NCBI GenBank assembly: GCA_026461395.1
Contig: JAPJNA010000055.1
Span: 1-33,161, forward strand
From: Chthoniobacterales bacterium
GTDB lineage: Bacteria > Verrucomicrobiota > Verrucomicrobiia > Chthoniobacterales > UBA6821
Direction: 5' to 3'
Length of the DNA: 33,161 nt
Shown here: piece by piece, positions 7,751 through 19,339 of the stretch
Numbering within the stretch: position 1 is the stretch's first letter
Layout of the letters: each line of letters begins with the position of its first letter
Translations under genes and position numbers: made by a program
Notes under the pieces: model-generated
Databases searched by the model: none
What the model saw: only the letters and a program-made list of their open reading frames with translations
Told to the model about the DNA's origin: nothing

Positions 7751-10222
7751 ATGGCCCTAAAGAAATCCGAACTCTACTCCTCCCTCTGGGCGGGCTGTGA
7801 CGAACTACGAGGCGGCATGGATGCCAGCCAGTACAAGGACTACGTGCTGGTTCTGCTCTTTGTGAAATACATCAGCGACAAGTTTGCAGGCGATGCCTTT
7901 GCCCCGATTGTCATTCCGACAGGTGCGAGCTTCACCGACCTGGTGGCACTCAAGGGGAAGAGCGACATCGGCGACCAGATCAACAAGAAGATCCTCGGGC
8001 CCCTAGCTCAGGAGAACAACCTCTCCGACATGCCGGACTTCAATGATCCGAACAAGCTGGGCAGCGGCAAGGAGATGGTGGATCGCATCACCAATCTCAT
8101 CGCAATCTTTGAGAACCCTGCTCTGGATTTCTCCAAGAACCGCGCCGATGGGGACGACCTGCTTGGTGATGCCTACGAGTATCTCATGCGGCACTTCGCC
8201 ACGGAGAGCGGGAAGAGCAAGGGGCAATTCTACACCCCTTCGGAAGTCAGCCGCGTCATCGCCCAGATCTTGGGAATCCGTAACGCAGCCACCACGAATG
8301 ACACGACTGCCTACGACCCGACCTGTGGATCGGGATCCCTGCTCCTGAAGATCGGAACGGAGGCCAGTCATGGCAAGGAGGTGAAGATCACCCTCTACGG
8401 TCAGGAGAAGGATTCCTCCACTGCCGGTCTCGCCCGCATGAACATGATCCTGCACGACTATGCGACGGCAGAGATCAAGCAGGGCAACACCATTGCCAAT
8501 CCCCTCTTCACTGAGGGACAACATGGCGAAGGTGGACTCAAGACCTTTGACTATGTCGTGGCCAATCCGCCCTTCAGTGACAAACGCTGGAGCACCGGAC
8601 TCATACCCGATGCTGATAGTTACGGGAGGTTCTCAGGCTATGGTATCCCCCCAGCCAAGCAGGGCGACTACGCTTATCTGCTCCACATCCTCCGATCCAT
8701 CAAGAGCACCGGCAAAGGAGCCTGCATCCTTCCGCATGGTGTCCTCTTTCGTGGAAATGCCGAGGGAGTCATTCGTCGCAATCTCATCCAGCGTGGAGTC
8801 ATCAAGGCCATCATCGGACTCCCTGCCAATCTCTTCTATGGCACAGGCATTCCCGCCTGCATCATCGTCCTCGACAAGCACGATGCACAGGCCCGCAAAG
8901 GGATCTTCCTGATCGACGCCTCCAAGGGCTTCCGAAAGGATGGAAATAAGAACCGCCTTCGAGAGCAGGACATCCACCGCATCGTTGATACCTTCTCCCG
9001 AGAGGTGGAGATTCCAGGCTATTCCCGTCTGGCGCCGGTTGCTGAGATCAGTGATTCCAGGAATGACTACAATCTCAATCTCCCCCGCTACATCGACAGC
9101 ACGGAGGCCGAGGACATTCAGGACATCGCCGCCCATTTGAACGGTGGTATTCCTGATAAGGACATTGATGCCCTTGACCGCTACTGGAAGGTCATCCCGT
9201 CCGTCCGTGCCGCCCTCTTTGAGAAATCCGACCGCGACGATTACAGCCAGTTGCGCGTCTCTGCCGCTGAGATCAAGACCACCATTTTCAGCCACTCAGA
9301 GTTCACTTCCTTCAACGAAACGGCCACGCAGCTCTTCGAGAAGTGGAAAGCCACCACGACTCCGCGATTGAAAGCGCTCACAGAAGGGAGTCATCCCAAG
9401 GCCCTGATCGAGGAGATCTCCGAGGATTTGCTGACCACCTTTGAGAAGGCACCATTGCTCGATCCCTACGATATCTACCAGCACCTCATGGATTGCTGGG
9501 CAGAGACCATGCAGGATGACTGCTATCTCATTGCAGGTGATGGCTGGTACAAGGCAGCCCAGCCACGACTCATCGTTGAGGAGAATGGAAAGAAGTCCAA
9601 GGCAAAGCCCGATTTCACATTGTGTAGGAAGAAATACCAAGCGGAGTTGATCCCTCCTTCCCTGATTATCGCCCGCTACTTCGCCACGGAACAGTCAGTC
9701 ATCGAGTCCTGGGAGGCTCAGATTGCTACTCTTGCTCAGCAGATTGAAGAACTTGCCGAGGAACATGGGGGAGAAGGAGGGCTGCTTGAAGATGCCAAGA
9801 ACGACAAGGACAAGCTGACCAAAGTTTCTGTTGCGGCTCGTCTCAAGGAAATCAAAGGGGAGAAGGACGCAGACGAGGAGATCAAGGTGCTAAAGGAGTA
9901 TCTCGTCCTTGTTGAGAAGGAGAGCGAGACCAGCACGAAGCTCAAGGGCATGCAGGATTCTCTGACAGAGCTTGTTGCCGAAAAATACCCCAACCTTTCA
10001 GAAGCGGAGATTCAGGTTCTCGTCGTGGCGGACAAATGGCTCGCCACACTAGCATCGACTGTTCAAGGGGAGCTGGATCGCGTCTCCCAGACCCTGACTG
10101 GACGTATTCGACAGTTGGCGGAACGCTATGAATCTCCCTTGCAGCGGCTTACAGATGAAGTCTTCTCTCTTTCTACCCGTGTGGAGCAGCATCTCAAACG
10201 GATGGGAGCTTCTGTTATTTAA
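7751..10222 (+). CDS. hsdM: Type I restriction-modification methyltransferase subunit
   Basis: HsdM transfers methyl groups from S-adenosylmethionine to adenine within the site chosen by HsdS. The N-terminal helical domain (LWAGCDELRGG, then YVLVLLFVKYISD) is followed by GQFYTPSEV, the SAM-binding PTCGSG (residues 190-195) and the catalytic NPPF (272-275), all intact. At 823 residues it is about 300 longer than classic HsdM. The extra C-terminal part includes a charged coiled coil (about residues 650-760), which may contact HsdR or HsdS. It heads the defence operon. A 51-bp gap with a palindrome separates it from fic, so later genes may have a second promoter. No clear ribosome-binding site is visible. 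Confidence 0.95.
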   Translation: MALKKSELYSSLWAGCDELRGGMDASQYKDYVLVLLFVKYISDKFAGDAFAPIVIPTGASFTDLVALKGKSDIGDQINKKILGPLAQENNLSDMPDFNDPNKLGSGKEMVDRITNLIAIFENPALDFSKNRADGDDLLGDAYEYLMRHFATESGKSKGQFYTPSEVSRVIAQILGIRNAATTNDTTAYDPTCGSGSLLLKIGTEASHGKEVKITLYGQEKDSSTAGLARMNMILHDYATAEIKQGNTIANPLFTEGQHGEGGLKTFDYVVANPPFSDKRWSTGLIPDADSYGRFSGYGIPPAKQGDYAYLLHILRSIKSTGKGACILPHGVLFRGNAEGVIRRNLIQRGVIKAIIGLPANLFYGTGIPACIIVLDKHDAQARKGIFLIDASKGFRKDGNKNRLREQDIHRIVDTFSREVEIPGYSRLAPVAEISDSRNDYNLNLPRYIDSTEAEDIQDIAAHLNGGIPDKDIDALDRYWKVIPSVRAALFEKSDRDDYSQLRVSAAEIKTTIFSHSEFTSFNETATQLFEKWKATTTPRLKALTEGSHPKALIEEISEDLLTTFEKAPLLDPYDIYQHLMDCWAETMQDDCYLIAGDGWYKAAQPRLIVEENGKKSKAKPDFTLCRKKYQAELIPPSLIIARYFATEQSVIESWEAQIATLAQQIEELAEEHGGEGGLLEDAKNDKDKLTKVSVAARLKEIKGEKDADEEIKVLKEYLVLVEKESETSTKLKGMQDSLTELVAEKYPNLSEAEIQVLVVADKWLATLASTVQGELDRVSQTLTGRIRQLAERYESPLQRLTDEVFSLSTRVEQHLKRMGASVI

Positions 10223-10273: not shown

Positions 10274-11437
10274 ATGAAGCGGATCGAAACTGGCATTTAC
10301 AGCACGACCACTGTTGGCGGAGAGAATGTGCGGGCCTATGTACCTCACCCGCTCCCTCCTGCTCCACCACTCGATCTAACCGGACACCGCCAGCGATTGT
10401 TGGAACGCGCCACGTTGGCCGTTGGTCGCCTGGATAGCGTCAGTGCCCTGCTGCCGGATCCCCATCTCTTCCTCTATGCCTATGTGAGACGGGAAGCGGT
10501 TCTCTCCTCGCAGATTGAGGGCACCCAGTCCTCCCTATCGGATCTCCTCCTCTTTGAGCTGGAGGAAGTTCCTGGAGCCCCCTTTGACGATGTTGTGGAG
10601 GTCTCCAACTACATTGCTGCCCTAGAGCATGGCATGGCCCGATTGAAGGAAGAATTTCCCCTGAGCAACCGGTTGCTCAGGGAAATGCATGCCCATCTCA
10701 TGTCGCGTGGGAGAGGCAGTGACAAGGCCCCTGGAGAATTTCGCCGCAGTCAGAACTGGATCGGCGGGACTCGACCAGGCAATGCCCGCTTCGTTCCACC
10801 GCCACCGCAGGAGGTGGAGCAGTGCATGGCCTCTCTGGAACAGTTTCTGCATGAGGATACCTCCGGCATGCCGATCCTTATCAAGGCGGCACTAGCCCAT
10901 GTTCAGTTTGAGACCATCCATCCTTTCCTTGATGGGAATGGCCGACTTGGCCGCCTGCTTATCGCCCTGCTCTTGTATCATGGTGGTTTGCTTTCTCAGC
11001 CCCTGCTCTACCTCAGTCTCTACCTGAAGCAGCACCGGAGCGTCTATTACGACCTCCTTGATACCGTGCGTGCTCAGGGGGATTGGGAAGCCTGGGTTGA
11101 TTTCTTTTTGGAAGGAGTGGAGGAGACTGCTCTTGGGGCCGTGCAGACAGCTCGCCGACTTGTGGCACTCTTTGAGACGGATACTCGCCGTACCCAGGAG
11201 GGAGGACGGGGAGCCGCCAATGCCCTGCGAGTCCTGACTGCACTGCGCCAGCGCCCCATGCTGAGTCTGAAGCAACTCTGCCAGAGCACAGCGATGAACT
11301 TCCAGACCGCCTCCAAGGCGATGCAGCTCCTGGTCACCTCTGGTATTGCCCGTGAACTCACCGGTCAGCGTCGCAACCGCATCTTTGTCTATGATGCCTA
11401 TCTGGCCATTTTGAACGAGGGGGGAGAACCGTTGTGA
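10274..11437 (+). CDS. fic: Fic-domain AMP-transferase-like protein with inhibitory helix and C-terminal winged helix
   Basis: The catalytic motif HPFLDGNGRLGR is complete at residues 216-227. Fic enzymes with this motif transfer AMP from ATP to a protein side chain. The N-terminal SSQIEG at residues 78-83 matches the S/T-x-x-x-E-G/N inhibitory motif, so it belongs to the self-inhibited class where this Glu blocks ATP. The C-terminal 80 or so residues (SLKQLCQSTAMNFQTASKAMQLL) look like a winged-helix DNA-binding domain. It lies between hsdM and hsdS, and its stop overlaps the hsdS start (GTGA). Fic genes inside type I systems are known, but their job there is unclear; it could regulate the operon or sense phage damage. 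Confidence 0.9.
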   Translation: MKRIETGIYSTTTVGGENVRAYVPHPLPPAPPLDLTGHRQRLLERATLAVGRLDSVSALLPDPHLFLYAYVRREAVLSSQIEGTQSSLSDLLLFELEEVPGAPFDDVVEVSNYIAALEHGMARLKEEFPLSNRLLREMHAHLMSRGRGSDKAPGEFRRSQNWIGGTRPGNARFVPPPPQEVEQCMASLEQFLHEDTSGMPILIKAALAHVQFETIHPFLDGNGRLGRLLIALLLYHGGLLSQPLLYLSLYLKQHRSVYYDLLDTVRAQGDWEAWVDFFLEGVEETALGAVQTARRLVALFETDTRRTQEGGRGAANALRVLTALRQRPMLSLKQLCQSTAMNFQTASKAMQLLVTSGIARELTGQRRNRIFVYDAYLAILNEGGEPL

Positions 11438-12687
11438 AACCCGTTTATAGAAAGACCGAGGCAGGCGTCATCCCGGAGGATTGGGAGATTTCGCGGCTTG
11501 GCGATTTTTCACTAACATCGTCAGGGACAACACCAGCAAGAGCGTTGAAGGACCGCTACTACAAGAACGGGAAAATCGGCTGGGTAAAAACTTTGGACCT
11601 TCGTAATACGGAACTTTTGGCCACTTCGGAATGTGTCACAGAACTCGCATTCAAGGAAACCAGTCTGACAATATACCCAGTCGGAACAGTGCTGGTCGCA
11701 ATGTATGGCGGGTTTCAGCAAATCGGCAGAACCGGTCTGCTCCGAATCCCGGCAGCAGTAAATCAAGCAATCACCGCAATTCAGCCCAAAGGCGATAAGC
11801 TCCATTCGGAATACCTCCTGGCAACGCTGAACTATCGTGTCGGATACTGGAAGAACGTAGCAAGTAGCAGTCGCAAAGACCCGAACATCTCCAGCCAGGA
11901 CATCAGGAACTTTCCAATCGCTTACCCGAAGCCGCCCGAACAACGCGCCATCGCGAAGGCATTGCGTGATGTAGGTGCATTGCTGTCATCACTCGACCGG
12001 CTGATTTCCAAGAAGCGCGACCTCAAAACTGCCGCCATGCAGCAACTCCTCACTGGCAAAACCCGCCTGCCAGGATTCAGTGGTGAATGGGATCAGGTCA
12101 CCCTTGGTTCACTGTTCAGTTTTAAGAATGGACTGAACAAAGCTAAGGAGTTTTTCGGTTACGGCACACCTATCGTGAATTATATGGATGTGTTTCGGTG
12201 CTCCAAAATCCGGACAGCGCAGCTCACTGGGCGGGTTATGCTCACTACTCAAGAAATTCAAAACTTCGACGTCAAGAGAGGAGATGTCTTTTTCACCCGA
12301 ACTTCCGAGACCCCGGAAGAAATTGGAATTGCTTCAGTCATGATTGATGAGCCACGGCTCACAGTATTCAGTGGTTTTTTGCTTAGGGGGCGCCGAAAGA
12401 ATGATCGGCTGTGTGACGTCTTCAAAGCGTACTGCTTCACATCCGAGTTGGTGAGAAAGCAAATTATCTCAAAAGCATCCTACACCACTCGCGCTCTGAC
12501 AAGCGGCACAATTTTGTCTGCCGTGATTTTACCTATTCCACCTCTCCCTGAACAAATCGCCATCGCCGAAGTCCTCTCCGAGATGGACGCAGAGCTGGCA
12601 GCCCTCGAAAAACGCCGCGACAAAACCCGCGACCTCAAGCAGGGCATGATGCAGGAGCTTCTCACTGGCAGGATCCGCTTAATCTGA
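11434..12687 (+). CDS. hsdS: Type I restriction-modification specificity subunit
   Basis: HsdS recognises the two halves of the target site. The 417-residue protein shows the usual duplicated layout: target-recognition domain 1 (about residues 10-165), a conserved coiled-coil spacer ending in KRDLKTAAMQQLLTGKTRLP (about 195-215), recognition domain 2 (about 220-370) and a second spacer repeat ending in RDLKQGMMQELLTGRIRL at the C-terminus. Both recognition domains are preceded by a W-x-x-x-x-LG/LGS-type segment. The start is GTG at 11434, overlapping the fic stop, with a purine-rich GGGGGGAG upstream. The target sequence cannot be read from the protein by eye. Confidence 0.95.
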   Translation: MKPVYRKTEAGVIPEDWEISRLGDFSLTSSGTTPARALKDRYYKNGKIGWVKTLDLRNTELLATSECVTELAFKETSLTIYPVGTVLVAMYGGFQQIGRTGLLRIPAAVNQAITAIQPKGDKLHSEYLLATLNYRVGYWKNVASSSRKDPNISSQDIRNFPIAYPKPPEQRAIAKALRDVGALLSSLDRLISKKRDLKTAAMQQLLTGKTRLPGFSGEWDQVTLGSLFSFKNGLNKAKEFFGYGTPIVNYMDVFRCSKIRTAQLTGRVMLTTQEIQNFDVKRGDVFFTRTSETPEEIGIASVMIDEPRLTVFSGFLLRGRRKNDRLCDVFKAYCFTSELVRKQIISKASYTTRALTSGTILSAVILPIPPLPEQIAIAEVLSEMDAELAALEKRRDKTRDLKQGMMQELLTGRIRLI

Positions 12688-12693
12688 AATTCC

Positions 12694-14709
12694 ATGAACA
12701 AGATCGCAATCAAAGCCCAAAAGGATTTTTTGGAGAATCTCTCACACGCCTCACCCATCAGGGCTATCTCGGAATTGATCTGGAACGGTCTTGACGCGGG
12801 GGCAAATCATGTCGCAGTCCGCCTTGAAACTGATCATTTGGAGGGAATCGAGAAAATCCGCGTGAAAGATTCTGGCTCTGGAATAAATCATTCTGAAATT
12901 CAACCGTTTTTCGGAAATTTGGGGGACTCCTGGAAAAAGAAAAAAGGGCGTAACAATGGACGAGCCCTGCATGGCAAGAACGGGCAAGGACGTTTCAAGG
13001 CGTTTTCACTTGGTACGCGAGTAGAGTGGAACACGATCTATGATACGAAAGGGACCCGGATGCGATATCAGATTGTCGGTCGGGCTGATGCGCTCACAGA
13101 TCTTCTGTTTTCGGATCCGGTAGAGGCGAACGGTGATGCGTGCGGAACCGAGGTTATTGTTTCAGATACGAAAGACGGTCTTGGTGCTTTGATGACCGAT
13201 AATGCCCGTAATGAGTTGGCGAAATTGTTCGCGGCATATCTCAGTCAATATCCCGACATCACCATCGAATATAACGGAGTTCGTGTAGACCCCTTAAAAC
13301 TACAGAGAGATAGGCGTGACATCTTCATTGAAGAAATCCCCCTGGTAGGGGGGGAGACCGCCACCGCCACTGTGACGGTTGTTGAATGGCTAATGCCCGC
13401 CAAGCGTGTTGTCCATCTTTGCGACGCATCTGGAATCTCGCTTCATGAGACCGATGCGGGGCAGCAAATCCGCGCACCCGGTTTCGATTTCACGGTCTAT
13501 GTAAAATGCGACCGCTTTCTAGAACTGAACAACGAAGGGCTTCTCAGCTTGGACGAGCTTCATCCGGATGTTGGTTATATCGTTCAGTCGGCCAAGAGAG
13601 CCGTAAAGGCGCATTTCCGCAGGAAACTTTTCGAGCAACAAAGTCATATCGTTGAGCGATGGAAGCAGGAGCAGATATATCCGTTCGAGGAAAAGGAGCA
13701 CTTGAATGCCGTAGAGGAGGCGGAACGTCAGGTCTTTGATATACTCGCGGTGAACGTGGAGTCTTACCTCCCCTCTTTTGAGGAGGCAGACACAAAGTCA
13801 AAGAAATTCATGTTCCGCTTGTTGGCTCAGGCATTGAAGGACAATCCAGATTCTGTCCAGAAGATCATCACTGAGATGCTCAGCCTTAAGAAGGAGGAGC
13901 AGGAAACATTGGCAGAACTATTAGAGTCCACAAGTCTCTCAAACATAATCAGTTGCTCAAAGACTGTTGCGAACAGGCTCGACTTTCTTGTTGCCCTAGA
14001 TGCCCTGATTTTTGGCGAGGACACGAAGAAAAAGCTTCTGGAACGAGATCAACTTCACAAGATTTTAGAGAGCGAAGCTTGGATTTTTGATGAGGAGTTT
14101 GCTCTGTCGGGAAGTGAGGAAAGGCTTGAAGACGTTTTGGAGAAACATGCTGGATTCCTTGGAGAGCGAGTTAATGGAGGAACGGACGTTGTTGTTGGTG
14201 AGGGCAAAACGGGCAGGATTGATTTGAGGCTCAGCCGTGGCAACTTACTCCGGAGTGGAGAGTTGGACTACCTGATCGTCGAATTGAAACGCCCTTCAAA
14301 AAAAATCGACGACAGTGTCATTTCCCAAGTCAAAAAATATGCGATGGCTGTAGCGGGAGATGAACGTTTTAACGGGATACCTGCAAGGTGGAAATTTATT
14401 GCAGTTTCCAATGAGATGGATCAGTACGCAAAAAACGATGCTAATCAACCGGACCGTCCAAGCGGTCAGGTGTGGATTAGTCCTGATAGAAAAATCACGG
14501 TCTGGGTAAGAGAGTGGGCGGAGGTCATCAACACCGCCCGTGCAAGACTGAACTTTATCAACAAAACTCTGAGCTACGAGGCGAGTAGAGAGTCATCAAG
14601 GGCCTATCTCGTAAAGACACATGCCAAGTTTATCCCAGAAACGGAGCTTTCCGAAGAACAGGAAGGAATGGATTCAACCGAACAACGCCAACCCCAAGAG
14701 GAACAGTAA
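12694..14709 (+). CDS. GHKL-type ATPase fused to a PD-(D/E)XK-like nuclease domain
   Basis: The N-terminal domain is a Bergerat-fold ATPase as in Hsp90, MutL and MORC proteins: Glu27 and Asn31 in ELIWNGLDAGA (N box), DSGSG at residues 59-63 (G1 box) and HGKNGQGRFKAF near 93-104 (G2 box). A transducer-like middle and a long helical region follow. The C-terminal part carries Asp510 in GRIDLRLS, Asp525, and Glu530-Leu-Lys532 in LIVELKRP, a typical PD-(D/E)XK nuclease core. It lies between hsdS and hsdR with gaps of 6 and 13 bp, so it is almost certainly cotranscribed. It could be an ATP-gated nuclease that adds a second layer to the restriction system. The domains are well supported; the biological role is inferred. 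Confidence 0.8.
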   Translation: MNKIAIKAQKDFLENLSHASPIRAISELIWNGLDAGANHVAVRLETDHLEGIEKIRVKDSGSGINHSEIQPFFGNLGDSWKKKKGRNNGRALHGKNGQGRFKAFSLGTRVEWNTIYDTKGTRMRYQIVGRADALTDLLFSDPVEANGDACGTEVIVSDTKDGLGALMTDNARNELAKLFAAYLSQYPDITIEYNGVRVDPLKLQRDRRDIFIEEIPLVGGETATATVTVVEWLMPAKRVVHLCDASGISLHETDAGQQIRAPGFDFTVYVKCDRFLELNNEGLLSLDELHPDVGYIVQSAKRAVKAHFRRKLFEQQSHIVERWKQEQIYPFEEKEHLNAVEEAERQVFDILAVNVESYLPSFEEADTKSKKFMFRLLAQALKDNPDSVQKIITEMLSLKKEEQETLAELLESTSLSNIISCSKTVANRLDFLVALDALIFGEDTKKKLLERDQLHKILESEAWIFDEEFALSGSEERLEDVLEKHAGFLGERVNGGTDVVVGEGKTGRIDLRLSRGNLLRSGELDYLIVELKRPSKKIDDSVISQVKKYAMAVAGDERFNGIPARWKFIAVSNEMDQYAKNDANQPDRPSGQVWISPDRKITVWVREWAEVINTARARLNFINKTLSYEASRESSRAYLVKTHAKFIPETELSEEQEGMDSTEQRQPQEEQ

Positions 14710-14722
14710 ATCCTCCTAAACC

Positions 14723-17700
14723 ATGTCTGAACAACCGGGATCAGAAAGAGCCACCCAGAACAGGGTCATCACCCTATTCGTGGATGAGCTTGGATACCGG
14801 TATCTGGGAGATTGGAGCGATCGCCCTGACAACAGCAATATCAAGGAGGATCTCCTGAGTGGCTACCTGATGAAGGCTGGCTACACGATGGAGCAGATCA
14901 GCCGTGCGATCTATCTGCTCAAGACGGAGTCGGAAAATCCAAGCCGCAGCCTCTACGACAACAACAAGGCGGTCTATAGCCTCCTTCGTTATGGAGTGCC
15001 GGTGAAGACTGAGGCAGGGAAGGTCACGGAATTAGTTAAGGTCATCGACTGGGACTTGGAGAATCCAGGTAAGAATGACTTCGGTATCGCGGAGGAGGTG
15101 ACACTCACTGGGAATCTGGAACGCCGTCCCGATCTGGTGATCTATGTAAATGGCATCGCCGTTACCGTGATCGAGCTAAAGGCGGGTCATGTCTTTGTCA
15201 GTGATGGAATCAGGCAACTCCTCTCCAATCAGCAAAAGGAATTCAACGAGTGGTTTTTCTCCACGGTGCAGCTGGTCATTGCGGGCAATGATTCTGAAGG
15301 ACTGCGGTATGGAACCATCGGTACTGGCGAAAAATACTTCCTGAAATGGAAAGAGGATGAGGAAGACAATGCTCGCTTCAAGCTCGACAAGTATCTCCTG
15401 AAATTGTGCCGCAAGGGTCGGCTCATCGAGTTGATGCATGATTTCGTGCTCTTCGACGGAGGGGTGAAGAAGCTTCCCCGAGTCCATCAATATTTCGGGA
15501 TCAAGGCGGCTCAGGAGCATGTCAAAGCCTCGAAGGGAGGGATCATCTGGCACACCCAGGGGAGTGGCAAAAGCATCGTCATGGTGCTACTAGCGAAATG
15601 GATCCTTGAGAATAAGCCCAATGCCCGTGTCTTGATCGTCACAGATCGGGACGAACTGGATAAACAGATCGAGGGAGTCTTTGCCGGTAGTGGAGAGCCC
15701 ATTTATCGCACCAGCAGCGGACGCGATCTGATGGCTCAACTAGGTCAGACCAAGCCGCGATTGCTCTGCTCATTGGTTCACAAGTTCGGACGGCGGGGAG
15801 TTGAGGATTTTGACTCATTCATTGACGAGCTGAAGGCCCAGCCGAGTCCTGCGGTCGGGGAACTCTTTATTTTTGTGGATGAGTGTCACCGCACCCAGAC
15901 CGGCAAGCTGCACAAGACGATGAAGGCACTACTCCCGAGTGCCGTATTCATCGGCTTCACGGGAACTCCTCTACTCAAGAAGGATCAGGCCACGAGCTTC
16001 GAGATATTCGGCAGTTACATCCACACCTACAAATTCGGTGAGGCCGTCCTGGATGAAGTCGTGCTCGATCTGGTCTATGAGGCTCGCGACATCGCTCAGA
16101 GTCTCGGATCACAGGAAAAGATCGATGCCTGGTTTGAAGCGAAGACAAAGGGCCTGAACGACTGGCAGAAGGCAGCACTACGGGAACAGTGGGGGACAAT
16201 GCAGAAGGTGCTCAGCTCCCGCAGTCGGATGGATCAGGTCGTGGAGGACATCGTGCTCGATTTCGGAGTGAAACCACGACTCAGCAGTGAGCGAGGCAAT
16301 GCCATGCTGGTGGCCAGTAGCATCTACGAAGCGACTCGGTACTTTGAGCTTTTTTCGAAGAGTCCTCTCAGAGGGAAGTGCGCCCTCATCACCTCGTACA
16401 ACCCAACAGCTGCAGATGTCACTTTGGAGGAAACCGGAGCGGGAACCGAAACCGAGAAGCAGTTTCTCCGCAATACCTATAACGCCCTGCTGGAGGGAGT
16501 TTCACCAAAGCCAGGGAAGAGTAAAACGGAAACCTACGAGGATAATGCCAAGGAGCTCTTCCGGTCACAGCCGGCCAAAATGAAGTTGCTGATCGTCGTG
16601 GATAAGCTGCTCACTGGATTCGATGCACCCCCTTGCACTTATCTCTACATCGACAAATCGATGCAGGATCATGGTCTCTTCCAGGCTATCTGCCGGACGA
16701 ACAGACTCGACGGAGAGGATAAAACCTACGGCTACATCATCGATTACAAGGATCTCTTCCAGAAACTGGTAAATGAAAAGGGTACAGGCGCCCTCCAGGT
16801 TTATACCTCAGAGATTGATCACAGTGCTGGTGGTGCGACTCCTGATGTGCTGATGCAGGATCGCCTGAAGAAAGGGAAAGAGCGGCTAGATCGGGCACTG
16901 GAAGTTATTTCCCTGCTCTGTGAACCTGTGAAGCCACCCAAGGACGATCTGGCGCATATCCATTATTTCTGCGGAAACACGGAGATAGCGACCGATCTCA
17001 AGGAGCATGAACCCCAACGAGTCTCCCTGTATCGATCCGCTGCGGTACTGGTACGATCCTATGCGGAAATTGCCGACGAATTGTCAAAGGCTGGCTACAC
17101 AAACGCACGGATTGCCCAGATCAAGCAGGAGTTGGATCGTGCGATCAAGCTCAGGGATATTATCCGTAAAGCAAGCGGCGAGACCATTGACCTGAAAGCC
17201 TACGAGGCCGATATGCGGCACCTGATCGATACCTATATCAAGGCCGAGGGACCCAGGAAGATTTCCGATTTTGACGACATGGGGCTTCTGGAAGTGATTG
17301 CAAAAAGCGGCCTGGAAGAGGCTGTTAGTAAACTCCCTCCAGGAATCAGAAACAGCAAGGAGGCGGTGGCGGAAACCATCGCCAACAATGTCCGCCGGAA
17401 AATCATCAAGGAGCACCTCAATGATCCCTCCTTTTACAACAAGATGTCAGTCTTGCTAAAAGAGATCCTTGATGACCTCAGCGCCAAGCGGATTGATTAC
17501 GAGAAGTTTCTGAAGAAGATCGCGGAGATTGCCAAGCAGGTCCAGGGTGGCGCTGCCGACGATACCCCTGAGCCGTTGAAGAAAAGCCCTGGACTAAGAG
17601 CCCTCTACAACCAGCTGAGAGAGGAACTCACGGAGTCGTCTAATAATCTAGGCGAGTCCCAAGGAGCCTATGCTGGAGCGACATCCGAATCGGCACTCCA

Positions 17701-17866
17701 AGTGGCCATGCGGCTCGATATTGCCATCAAATCAAAACGCCATGATGGCTGGCGTGGCGTTCAGACCAAGGAAAGGGAAATAAAGCGGATCATCCATGAT
17801 GTTGTGCTTACTCCTGAGCGGGTGGAGAGGCTGTACGGGATCGTTTTTGCGCAGAGGGAATACTGA
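14723..17866 (+). CDS. hsdR: Type I restriction endonuclease and translocase subunit
   Basis: HsdR cuts DNA far from the recognition site after ATP-driven translocation. The N-terminal nuclease core has Asp137 and Glu151-Leu-Lys153 (RPDLVIY, then VIELKAG). The SF2 helicase motor follows with Walker A GSGKS (280-284), DECH at 386-389 in place of DEAH, FTGTPL soon after, and later helicase motifs around LLTGFDAPP and AICRTNRLDG. The C-terminal part is helical and should dock onto HsdM. At 1047 residues it has the expected size and all catalytic residues, so the system is probably active. Its stop overlaps the next start by one base. Confidence 0.95.
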   Translation: MSEQPGSERATQNRVITLFVDELGYRYLGDWSDRPDNSNIKEDLLSGYLMKAGYTMEQISRAIYLLKTESENPSRSLYDNNKAVYSLLRYGVPVKTEAGKVTELVKVIDWDLENPGKNDFGIAEEVTLTGNLERRPDLVIYVNGIAVTVIELKAGHVFVSDGIRQLLSNQQKEFNEWFFSTVQLVIAGNDSEGLRYGTIGTGEKYFLKWKEDEEDNARFKLDKYLLKLCRKGRLIELMHDFVLFDGGVKKLPRVHQYFGIKAAQEHVKASKGGIIWHTQGSGKSIVMVLLAKWILENKPNARVLIVTDRDELDKQIEGVFAGSGEPIYRTSSGRDLMAQLGQTKPRLLCSLVHKFGRRGVEDFDSFIDELKAQPSPAVGELFIFVDECHRTQTGKLHKTMKALLPSAVFIGFTGTPLLKKDQATSFEIFGSYIHTYKFGEAVLDEVVLDLVYEARDIAQSLGSQEKIDAWFEAKTKGLNDWQKAALREQWGTMQKVLSSRSRMDQVVEDIVLDFGVKPRLSSERGNAMLVASSIYEATRYFELFSKSPLRGKCALITSYNPTAADVTLEETGAGTETEKQFLRNTYNALLEGVSPKPGKSKTETYEDNAKELFRSQPAKMKLLIVVDKLLTGFDAPPCTYLYIDKSMQDHGLFQAICRTNRLDGEDKTYGYIIDYKDLFQKLVNEKGTGALQVYTSEIDHSAGGATPDVLMQDRLKKGKERLDRALEVISLLCEPVKPPKDDLAHIHYFCGNTEIATDLKEHEPQRVSLYRSAAVLVRSYAEIADELSKAGYTNARIAQIKQELDRAIKLRDIIRKASGETIDLKAYEADMRHLIDTYIKAEGPRKISDFDDMGLLEVIAKSGLEEAVSKLPPGIRNSKEAVAETIANNVRRKIIKEHLNDPSFYNKMSVLLKEILDDLSAKRIDYEKFLKKIAEIAKQVQGGAADDTPEPLKKSPGLRALYNQLREELTESSNNLGESQGAYAGATSESALQVAMRLDIAIKSKRHDGWRGVQTKEREIKRIIHDVVLTPERVERLYGIVFAQREY

Positions 17867-18585
17867 TGGTCTCCGAGGTACTGCGATTGGGGGACCTCTC
17901 CGTGGAGGTGGTACGCAAGGAGATCAAAAATATCCACCTCAGCGTCTATCCTCCCAAGGGGAGAGTTAAGATTGCCGCTCCGGCTCGGATGACTCTCGAT
18001 ACGATACGAGTCTTCGCAATTTCCAAGATGGCATGGATCCGTCAGCAGCAGGAAAAGTTGCTGGCGCAGGAGAGGGAACCAGCTCGCGAGTATCTGGAAA
18101 AGGAAAGCCACTATTTCTGGGGGAAGCGGTATCTCCTCAAGGTAATTGCGAAGGATGCTCCCCAAAGGGTCGAACTTAAACATCGCACGCTGAATCTCCA
18201 CGTCCGTCCAGGGACAGGTGTGGCTGCAAAACGTGAACTGTTAGAGGAGTGGTATCGTGTCCAACTCAGGACCGCACTCGAACCACTGATTACCAAGTGG
18301 GAGTCGATTCTAAGAGTTAAGGCAGGGAAGATCTTTGTTCAGCGGATGAAGACCAAATGGGGAAGCTGCCAACCGGCATCAAGAAATCTGCGCTTCAACA
18401 CCGATCTGGCAAAAAAGCCCAGCGAGTGCCTGGAATACCTTGTCGTCCACGAAATGCTTCACCTGCTGGAGCCCACACACAACGCCAGATTCGTTGCCCT
18501 CATGGATCAGTTCCTCCCCAAATGGCAGCATCGGAGGCAACAACTTAATAGACTACCCATACGGCATGAGGACTGGGGTTATTAA
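17866..18585 (+). CDS. YgjP/SprT-like zinc metallopeptidase linked to type I restriction
   Basis: The 239-residue protein has the zinc site HEMLH (195-199) followed by LLEPTHNARF, and the signature MKTKWGSC about 30 residues earlier, as in the YgjP-like (DUF45, COG1451) family. It starts on the last base of the hsdR stop, so expression is coupled. Genes of this family are often found right after hsdR, and a role in disposing of HsdR or another restriction component is a reasonable inference, but the substrate is not known. No signal peptide; cytoplasmic. Confidence 0.9.
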   Translation: MVSEVLRLGDLSVEVVRKEIKNIHLSVYPPKGRVKIAAPARMTLDTIRVFAISKMAWIRQQQEKLLAQEREPAREYLEKESHYFWGKRYLLKVIAKDAPQRVELKHRTLNLHVRPGTGVAAKRELLEEWYRVQLRTALEPLITKWESILRVKAGKIFVQRMKTKWGSCQPASRNLRFNTDLAKKPSECLEYLVVHEMLHLLEPTHNARFVALMDQFLPKWQHRRQQLNRLPIRHEDWGY

Positions 18586-18600
18586 AGCAAACGATTTTAC

Positions 18601-19030
18601 ATGGCACTCTCCACACCCATCCCCTTTGCGAAGCGCTTGAGTTTGAAGCTCCCGCTAGTTTCAGCCTCTGTAGAAGCAGGTTTTCCCTCTCCAGCCGATG
18701 ACCACATGGAGCGAGGCATTGATCTCAACGAGGAGCTGATCCGCAATCCTGCGGCAACCTTCCTCATCAGGGTTCAGGGCGAGTCGATGCGGGATGCAGG
18801 GATTCACTCCGGGGATACCCTCATCGTGGATAAGTCAGTCACCCCGTATGACCGGCAGATCGTAGTTGCAATGATCGACGGGGAGTTCACGGTGAAGAGG
18901 TTAAGAAAAAAACAATGGCCGGATCTTCCTGGAGGCGGCCAACTCTTCCTTTGCCACGATCGAGGTTGGGGAAGGGCAAGAGCTCACGATCTGGGGAGCT
19001 GTCACCTACATCATCCACCAGGCGAGGTAA
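18601..19030 (+). pseudogene. umuD: umuD-like SOS mutagenesis gene with a one-base frameshift
   Basis: The protein matches UmuD closely: a cleavage site Ala26-Gly27, the catalytic Ser62 in GESM and Lys99 in GEFTVKRL, spaced as Ser60 and Lys97 in E. coli. After Lys99 the frame is lost at a run of seven A (18906-18912). The open frame runs on to 19059 with an unrelated tail. With six A the correct frame continues through FATIEVGEGQELTIWGAV to a stop at 19028-19030 and gives 142 residues, the usual length. So there is one extra base in a homopolymer: a true inactivation, a sequencing error, or a site of slippage. No umuC is present in the window, so this umuD would need a partner elsewhere. Confidence 0.8.
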
Positions 19031-19042
19031 CAACCAGAGTGT

Positions 19043-19339
19043 ATGGATCCACTTTCTGAATCTCTCAAACAGGTCGTTAAAGAGGCTGTGAGGGAGGCAA
19101 TCAGCGAAACCCTACGCGAGTTTCAACTACCTAAGCCGACCCAAGTAGTTCAGCAAAACACCGCAAAGCCAGTTGAGAGAAAAAAGCTCGCCGTGAAGAT
19201 TGATGAGGCAGCGGAAATGCTGAGCGTCAGCACCCAGACGATCAGGCGATTGGTTGCCAACGGCACCTTGAAAGCCTCACGAAAAACGCGCCACTTCTTG
19301 ATTCCCGTCGAAGAGATCAAGCGAATGATGGATGTTTGA
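19043..19339 (+). CDS. Excisionase-like helix-turn-helix protein
   Basis: The 98-residue protein has an N-terminal amphipathic helix (residues 1-30), a linker, then KIDEAAEMLSVSTQTIRRLV, NGTLKASRKTRHFLIPVEEI, the MerR-like helix-turn-helix plus wing of the HTH_17/excisionase family. Proteins of this type bend DNA at attachment sites to direct the integrase toward excision, or act as small regulators. It lies 13 bp after the corrected umuD stop and about 1 kb from the integrase gene, facing it. The fold is well supported; the excisionase role is inferred. Confidence 0.75.
   Translation: MDPLSESLKQVVKEAVREAISETLREFQLPKPTQVVQQNTAKPVERKKLAVKIDEAAEMLSVSTQTIRRLVANGTLKASRKTRHFLIPVEEIKRMMDV

Follow-up and report, generated by a model that had tools for sequence, protein, structure and literature searches.

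In a Chthoniobacterales bacterium, a gene whose product joins a GHKL-type ATPase to a nuclease is embedded in a type I restriction operon, which raises the question whether this protein, here called P0001, serves the restriction enzyme or is a defence in its own right that the operon carries. The stretch of DNA analysed (33,161 nucleotides of contig JAPJNA010000055.1, referred to as the window) stems from a genome assembly of 2.03 Mb. We consider it probable, at roughly 0.68, that P0001 is a self-sufficient, ATP-gated anti-phage DNA nuclease that is carried as exchangeable cargo in a slot of the type I operon. The genes of the operon are the following:

7751..10222, + strand: hsdM, 823 aa, NPPF motif present (TIGR00497 above cut-off; sequence)
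10274..11437, + strand: Fic protein, 387 aa, cargo between hsdM and hsdS (Pfam Fic and Fic_N; PADLOC SoFic, 4e-121; sequence)
11434..12687, + strand: hsdS, 417 aa (Pfam Methylase_S)
12694..14709, + strand: GHKL ATPase - PD-(D/E)XK nuclease P0001, 671 aa, paraMORC3-like / GHKL-Shedu (ORF, Pfam, AF2 model, 72-sequence alignment)
14723..17866, + strand: hsdR, 1047 aa, with RPD...ELK nuclease core and GSGKS and DECH motor motifs (TIGR00348 above cut-off; sequence)
17866..18585, + strand: YgjP/SprT-like metallopeptidase with HEMLH motif (Pfam PF01863, 6.7e-60; sequence)

In the resulting order hsdM-fic-hsdS-P0001-hsdR-ygjP, assigned with Pfam, PADLOC and NCBIfam, the P0001 gene is the fourth, separated by 6 bp from hsdS and by 13 bp from hsdR, and both this placement and the coordinates given for the gene by a first-pass annotation of the DNA are exact. 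The four neighbours that were read for catalytic motifs (HsdM, Fic, HsdR and YgjP) have all kept them, Fic carrying the HPFxDGNGRxGR motif (HPFLDGNGRLGR in the window) as well as an N-terminal SSQIEG of the inhibitory type. The type I operon around P0001 is intact, and co-transcription of P0001 with the hsd genes is likely. Chance juxtaposition is ruled out by the tight gaps together with the independent recurrence of the slot placement, and an assembly error is unlikely, since the same gene order was found again in unrelated genomes. Rfam and tRNA scans of the window returned no match, a scan of the window for promoters and terminators was uninformative, and PADLOC assigned no family to P0001. 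Downstream of the operon, 15 bp after ygjP, an ORF at 18601-19059 encodes a UmuD-like S24 peptidase; the match is limited to residues 14-105, and the C-terminal end appears unrelated, perhaps owing to a frameshift.

The N-terminal half of P0001 displays the features of a GHKL ATPase:

12694..13647, + strand: GHKL ATPase and S5/transducer module, residues 1-318 (VIA-align against MORC3 5ix2)
12772..12795, + strand: N box, E27..N31..D34 (conserved in 72/72 homologues)
12868..12882, + strand: G1 box, D59-x-G61-x-G63 (alignments of 72 homologues and of viral-contig homologues)
12973..12990, + strand: G2 box, G94..G97..G99 (alignment of 72 homologues)

Pfam HATPase_c_3 matches residues 22-121 (E=1.5e-13), and in a search of the whole sequence against the PDB it was the ATPase region of MutL and MORC alone that was matched, apart from hits to chalcone synthase, which were set aside as implausible. 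An AF2 (AlphaFold2) model built on 72 homologues (pLDDT 83.7) aligns over residues 7-315 with MORC3 (5ix2; VIA-align Z 20.3, rmsd 3.7 A, 282 aligned), followed by MORC2, TRAP1/Hsp90 and MutL, the MORC and Hsp90 matches spanning residues 7-318. As the model aligns with both the ATPase and the transducer of these proteins, GHKL and S5 transducer domains are both predicted to be present. The GhXhhpXXRhl motif specific to MORC is absent (0/72 homologues). Some relatives in Verrucomicrobiota (L254-L256, L258-L267 and L010) are shorter, at about 400 aa, and match the ATPase half only (residues 1 to about 400); a match to the nuclease half was not found in the fetched flanks of these loci.

The C-terminal half was modelled separately, with the following features:

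13936..14652, + strand: end of a helical linker and Shedu-like nuclease domain, residues 415-653, folded alone (AF2 pLDDT 84.8, pTM 0.82)
14221..14289, + strand: catalytic D510 ... E530-x-K532 (invariant in 72/72 homologues and in 31/31 viral homologues)

The best matches of this isolated model are E. coli SduA (8ps5, Z 9.7) and B. cereus Shedu (8ti9, Z 9.6), with 8ps4 likewise at 9.6-9.7; Nt.BspD6I (Z 9.2) comes next, then EndoMS, FokI and other PD-(D/E)XK enzymes, and because restriction nucleases at Z of 9.2 or below tie with Shedu within the margin of the tool, the Shedu fold match is not exclusive. Sequence profiles are weak for this half, the HSDR_N_2 match (E=0.0069) lying below its curated cut-off and the C-terminal profile finding no match among PDB sequences, so that the nuclease assignment rests on structure and conservation. 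E27, N31, D34, D59, G61, G94, G97, G99, E450, H455, D510, E530, K532, Q545 and Y549 are identical in 72 of 72 homologues, and this invariant set is also kept in 31 homologues from viral contigs, bar one gap. From its conservation (72/72), E450, upstream of D510, is a candidate for the first glutamate of an E-D-ExK set.

The relationship to Shedu was followed further by profile comparison. Pfam did not detect the SduA_C/DUF4263 signature of Shedu in P0001, and a direct comparison of the P0001 nuclease profile with classic Shedu is weak (29%). The same profile matches a GHKL family that itself has a sub-cut-off SduA_C match (hhalign 98.7%, E 3.6e-16), and one protein, from genome G134, matches both SduA_C, at its cut-off, and our profile. 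Fold and transitive profile links thus suggest a domain that is Shedu-like, not a proven Shedu, and since the direct comparison is weak we use the names paraMORC3-like and Shedu-like. Concerning the domains, the first-pass annotation has proved sound: the Hsp90/MutL/MORC-type ATPase with N, G1 and G2 boxes that it had read from the sequence is borne out by the Pfam match, the fold match and the invariant residues, its PD-(D/E)XK core with Asp510 and Glu530-x-Lys532 by the invariant residues and the Shedu/restriction-fold match of the model, and the fold search that it had proposed recovered both the ATPase fold (Z 20.3) and the nuclease fold (Z 9.7).

To place the gene in its operon context, we surveyed relatives of the window HsdR at roughly 43-75% identity, nearly all of them followed by ygjP, which is the usual companion 3' of hsdR in nearly every examined operon of this HsdR subfamily. 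The hsdS-hsdR interval of these operons holds RhuM, GmrSD types, SIR2, a zeta-toxin-like protein, AbiEii, a DUF4062 ATPase, PD-(D/E)XK or GIY-YIG nucleases, TIGR02391, TrlF with an RNA-binding protein, or a SMODS/AGS_C synthase with a SLATT protein (CBASS-like), or it is empty. On an HsdR tree of 35 operons the class of cargo changes at least 17 times; the HsdR of locus L268 is too divergent for this tree (branch length 10), and its position was discounted. The hsdS-hsdR interval in the HsdR/YgjP subfamily is an exchangeable cargo slot, and the possibility that P0001 is an integral type I subunit was rejected, most of the 35 same-subfamily operons holding other cargo or none. The CBASS-like pair occupies the slot on the Aeromonas veronii plasmid pAV1812-2 (L241, 5124-7008), with overlapping ends.

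The GHKL-nuclease itself occupies the slot in the window, in L038, in L246 (61% identical, together with GmrSD) and in L268. These four slot-resident proteins do not form one clade (p-AU 2.8e-45), and slot residence needs at least three state changes on the tree, so that the gene entered the slot at least three times, with the proviso that parsimony alone cannot separate gain from loss. The first-pass annotation had described the arrangement with Fic and YgjP as an unfamiliar one; the operon context stands as described, its unusualness does not, as the order hsdS-GHKL-(cargo)-hsdR recurs, YgjP follows nearly every HsdR of the subfamily and other defences in this slot have been published.

To assess how far the family is tied to type I restriction, a genome collection of 84,980 species was scanned, and out of 123 relatives recovered the 80 best were retained. 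Same-strand hsd genes adjoin 13 of these 80, and 67 are without adjacent hsd genes; when the count is limited to loci flanked by 2.5 kb or more on either side, again from the best 80 of 123, 11 of 54 are hsd-linked. The linked copies show several layouts: in the hsdS-hsdR interval beside a SIR2 gene (L038), downstream of hsdS (L045, L052), of hsdR (L054, L070, L090) or of ygjP (in Streptomyces), and ahead of hsdM (L092). Type I linkage changes 8 times by parsimony on the tree of the GHKL-nuclease protein. The nearest homologue in this tree (about 67-68% identical), from a genome labelled as belonging to the same order as the source of the window, lies 18 bp after HmaB-HmaC of an HMA system, in an operon that encodes a SNF2 motor. 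A Psychrobacter plasmid carries a homologue beside drt2 (Drt2) and a type II restriction system. In IMG/VR, clear homologues of roughly 31-50% identity are present on 34 viral contigs, and hsd genes were found in the fetched flanks of none of them (0/34). With regard to type I, homologues are therefore mostly unlinked to restriction (67/80 genomic among the best 80 of 123, 34/34 viral), the very distribution that the first-pass annotation had held to speak against its own reading.

Exchange of partners was seen in two Streptomyces loci, L070 and L075, whose GHKL-nucleases are 97% identical while HsdM and HsdR are only 24% identical; the DNA shared by the two (94% identity over 5.8 kb) begins just upstream of the GHKL-nuclease gene. 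Type I-linked and free copies have the same invariant catalytic residues. The distribution of homologues and the swap of partners favour an autonomous module over a dedicated partner of HsdR. About one-sixth of the surveyed loci are type I-linked, more than expected by chance, so that selection for co-location or simple clustering in defence islands is possible, and the excess could also be read as functional coupling.

Several loci deserve mention in their own right. On prophage-like contigs (IMG/VR L169-L201 and L203; OR544131.1) the GHKL-nuclease turns up repeatedly as single-gene cargo, and in Pasteurella phage Pmp14 a homologue lies within the tail module; the family corresponds to PHROG 6203, annotated as of unknown function. 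In a Planctomycetaceae MAG (L045, 1517-7302), hsdS and the GHKL gene are followed by genes for DUF4357 and HNH nuclease domains and not by hsdR. In L095 (1878-15574), the homologue is flanked by a type IIG-like methyltransferase gene cluster on one side and by an MkoA-like gene on the other, the gaps being 10 and 33 bp.

For the self-sufficient nuclease, the most likely course of action can be drawn by analogy with MORC/MutL and with VcSduA, the GHKL-Shedu protein of V. cholerae. ATP would make the GHKL/S5 dimer at the N-terminus clamp shut around DNA or a phage trigger, and closure would license the Shedu-like PD-(D/E)XK domain (D510, E530, K532) to cleave incoming DNA. Transcription and complementary protection would come from the operon, and neither HsdR nor HsdM nor HsdS would be required for the chemistry of P0001 or, we infer, for its action in vivo.

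A reading that we regard as doubtful takes P0001 for a coupled effector in the manner of PrrC: the assembled type I enzyme would keep it silent until a phage anti-restriction protein sets it free, whereupon the infected cell is killed or sterilised. PrrC, embedded in the EcoprrI type I operon, is activated in just this way, when restriction is disabled by a phage anti-restriction protein (PMC3874165, PMC2610378), and the tight gaps and recurring slot placement of the GHKL-nuclease agree with such coupling; yet PrrC orthologues are reported to be invariably type Ic-linked (PMC2610378), whereas the GHKL-nuclease family is mostly unlinked, tolerates unrelated type I partners and shares the same invariant catalytic residues in linked and free copies, and VcSduA acts without a type I partner, its host cells surviving (PMC12137116). 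Of the proposal in the first-pass annotation of an extra effector that fires when restriction fails, the extra effector thus remains the best reading, and the trigger, in a family mostly unlinked and found beside unrelated type I systems, has found no specific support. A narrower version, somewhat more doubtful still, would apply to lineages that keep the gene in the slot: there GHKL-Shedu would cooperate with the type I enzyme, its clamp sensing a stalled or phage-inhibited HsdR and firing the nuclease, as a DNA-cutting counterpart of PrrC.

It is improbable that P0001 is a modification-dependent, type IV-like enzyme that recognises modified phage DNA escaping type I, like GmrSD or TgvAB. GmrSD-type enzymes, which complement type I, often fill the same slot, and the L246 operon carries GHKL and GmrSD together, an arrangement that at the same time suggests different targets for the two; moreover, a modified-base-binding domain was not identified in P0001, VcSduA acted on T1-like Drexlerviridae (PMC12137116), and targeting of modified genomes is credited by its authors to the other system of that island. 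Least likely is the HsdR switch also suggested in the first-pass annotation, in which a MORC-like clamp would load beside the type I complex and control translocation or add a second cut: likely co-transcription, the SNF2 motor that the nearest relative has in its HMA operon and the MutL-UvrD and MORC-helicase associations discussed for related proteins in PMC2292703 would suit it, but the operons of the nearest HsdR relatives hold other cargo or none, the majority of surveyed copies are without linked hsd genes and the same gene stands beside unrelated type I systems, so that specific support is missing.

With P0001 read as carried cargo, nuclease family and cargo slot are each known, and what is new is that the operon combines them. 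A GHKL-gated Shedu-type nuclease joins the complete defences carried by type I operons between hsdS and hsdR, and the HsdR and YgjP subfamily is suggested as a general carrier of exchangeable cargo, the CBASS-like pair included; reading the hsdS-hsdR slot across genomes would be a cheap route to new defence genes. Since the family occurs widely on prophage-like contigs, as a lone gene that lacks annotation, naming it helps to annotate phage cargo.

Among known systems, a search of the open-licence literature found no report of this protein in a type I operon. BbrUII/HgiDII (NCBIfam NF050001) shares the GHKL-type N-terminal region (P0001 residues 25-199, E 1.3e-14), but membership was rejected, as the score of 53.7 bits falls short of the curated cut-off, 550 bits, and there is no full-length match. 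Older cases of extra ORFs inside type I loci are the Campylobacter rlo/mlo genes (PMC5183652), of which we infer the window fic between hsdM and hsdS to be an mlo-type counterpart, and prrC (PMC3874165). Like P0001, PrrC is an ATPase and nuclease effector encoded by an extra ORF, with the difference that it is an ABC-ATPase anticodon nuclease cutting tRNA and P0001 a GHKL protein with a PD-(D/E)XK DNase fold. Closer in placement are TgvAB and the DarTG2/RptR island, where defence genes are likewise embedded between hsdS and hsdR, their effectors being GmrSD-like restriction and DNA ADP-ribosylation, respectively. TgvAB protects without the hsd genes and with a nuclease-dead HsdR, although alone it gives 10-100-fold less protection than the whole operon against several phages, which its authors attribute to expression (PMC11411939). 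DarTG2 is followed by a metallopeptidase gene at the end of the operon, as in the window, and its authors suggest a potential defence recombination hotspot (PMC12255303).

In architecture, P0001 fits paraMORC3, described by Iyer, Abhiman and Aravind (2008; PMC2292703) as GHKL, S5 and a C-terminal restriction-fold nuclease with E-D-ExK, some members lying in restriction operons and others standing alone: P0001 appears to have a GHKL domain with intact N, G1 and G2 boxes, S5 and a restriction-endonuclease fold with E-D-ExK, and lacks the MORC-specific motif. The type I hsdS-hsdR slot is a difference, as that text, as far as consulted, does not describe it. Adams et al. (2025; PMC12137116) mention a proposal that places paraMORC3 proteins in the Shedu family, and their VcSduA (Shedu type I-D) has tested anti-phage activity: it protected at all MOIs tested, lost defence upon E27A or K557A exchange and is reported to form a system of its own on its island. 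The SduA_C Pfam model does not pick up P0001, and the likeness is drawn from descriptions rather than from a sequence alignment; within these bounds, both proteins fuse GHKL to a PD-(D/E)XK Shedu or Shedu-like domain, have a catalytic E27 and carry a catalytic lysine, K557 there and K532 here, and by this homology P0001 would be a defence gene.
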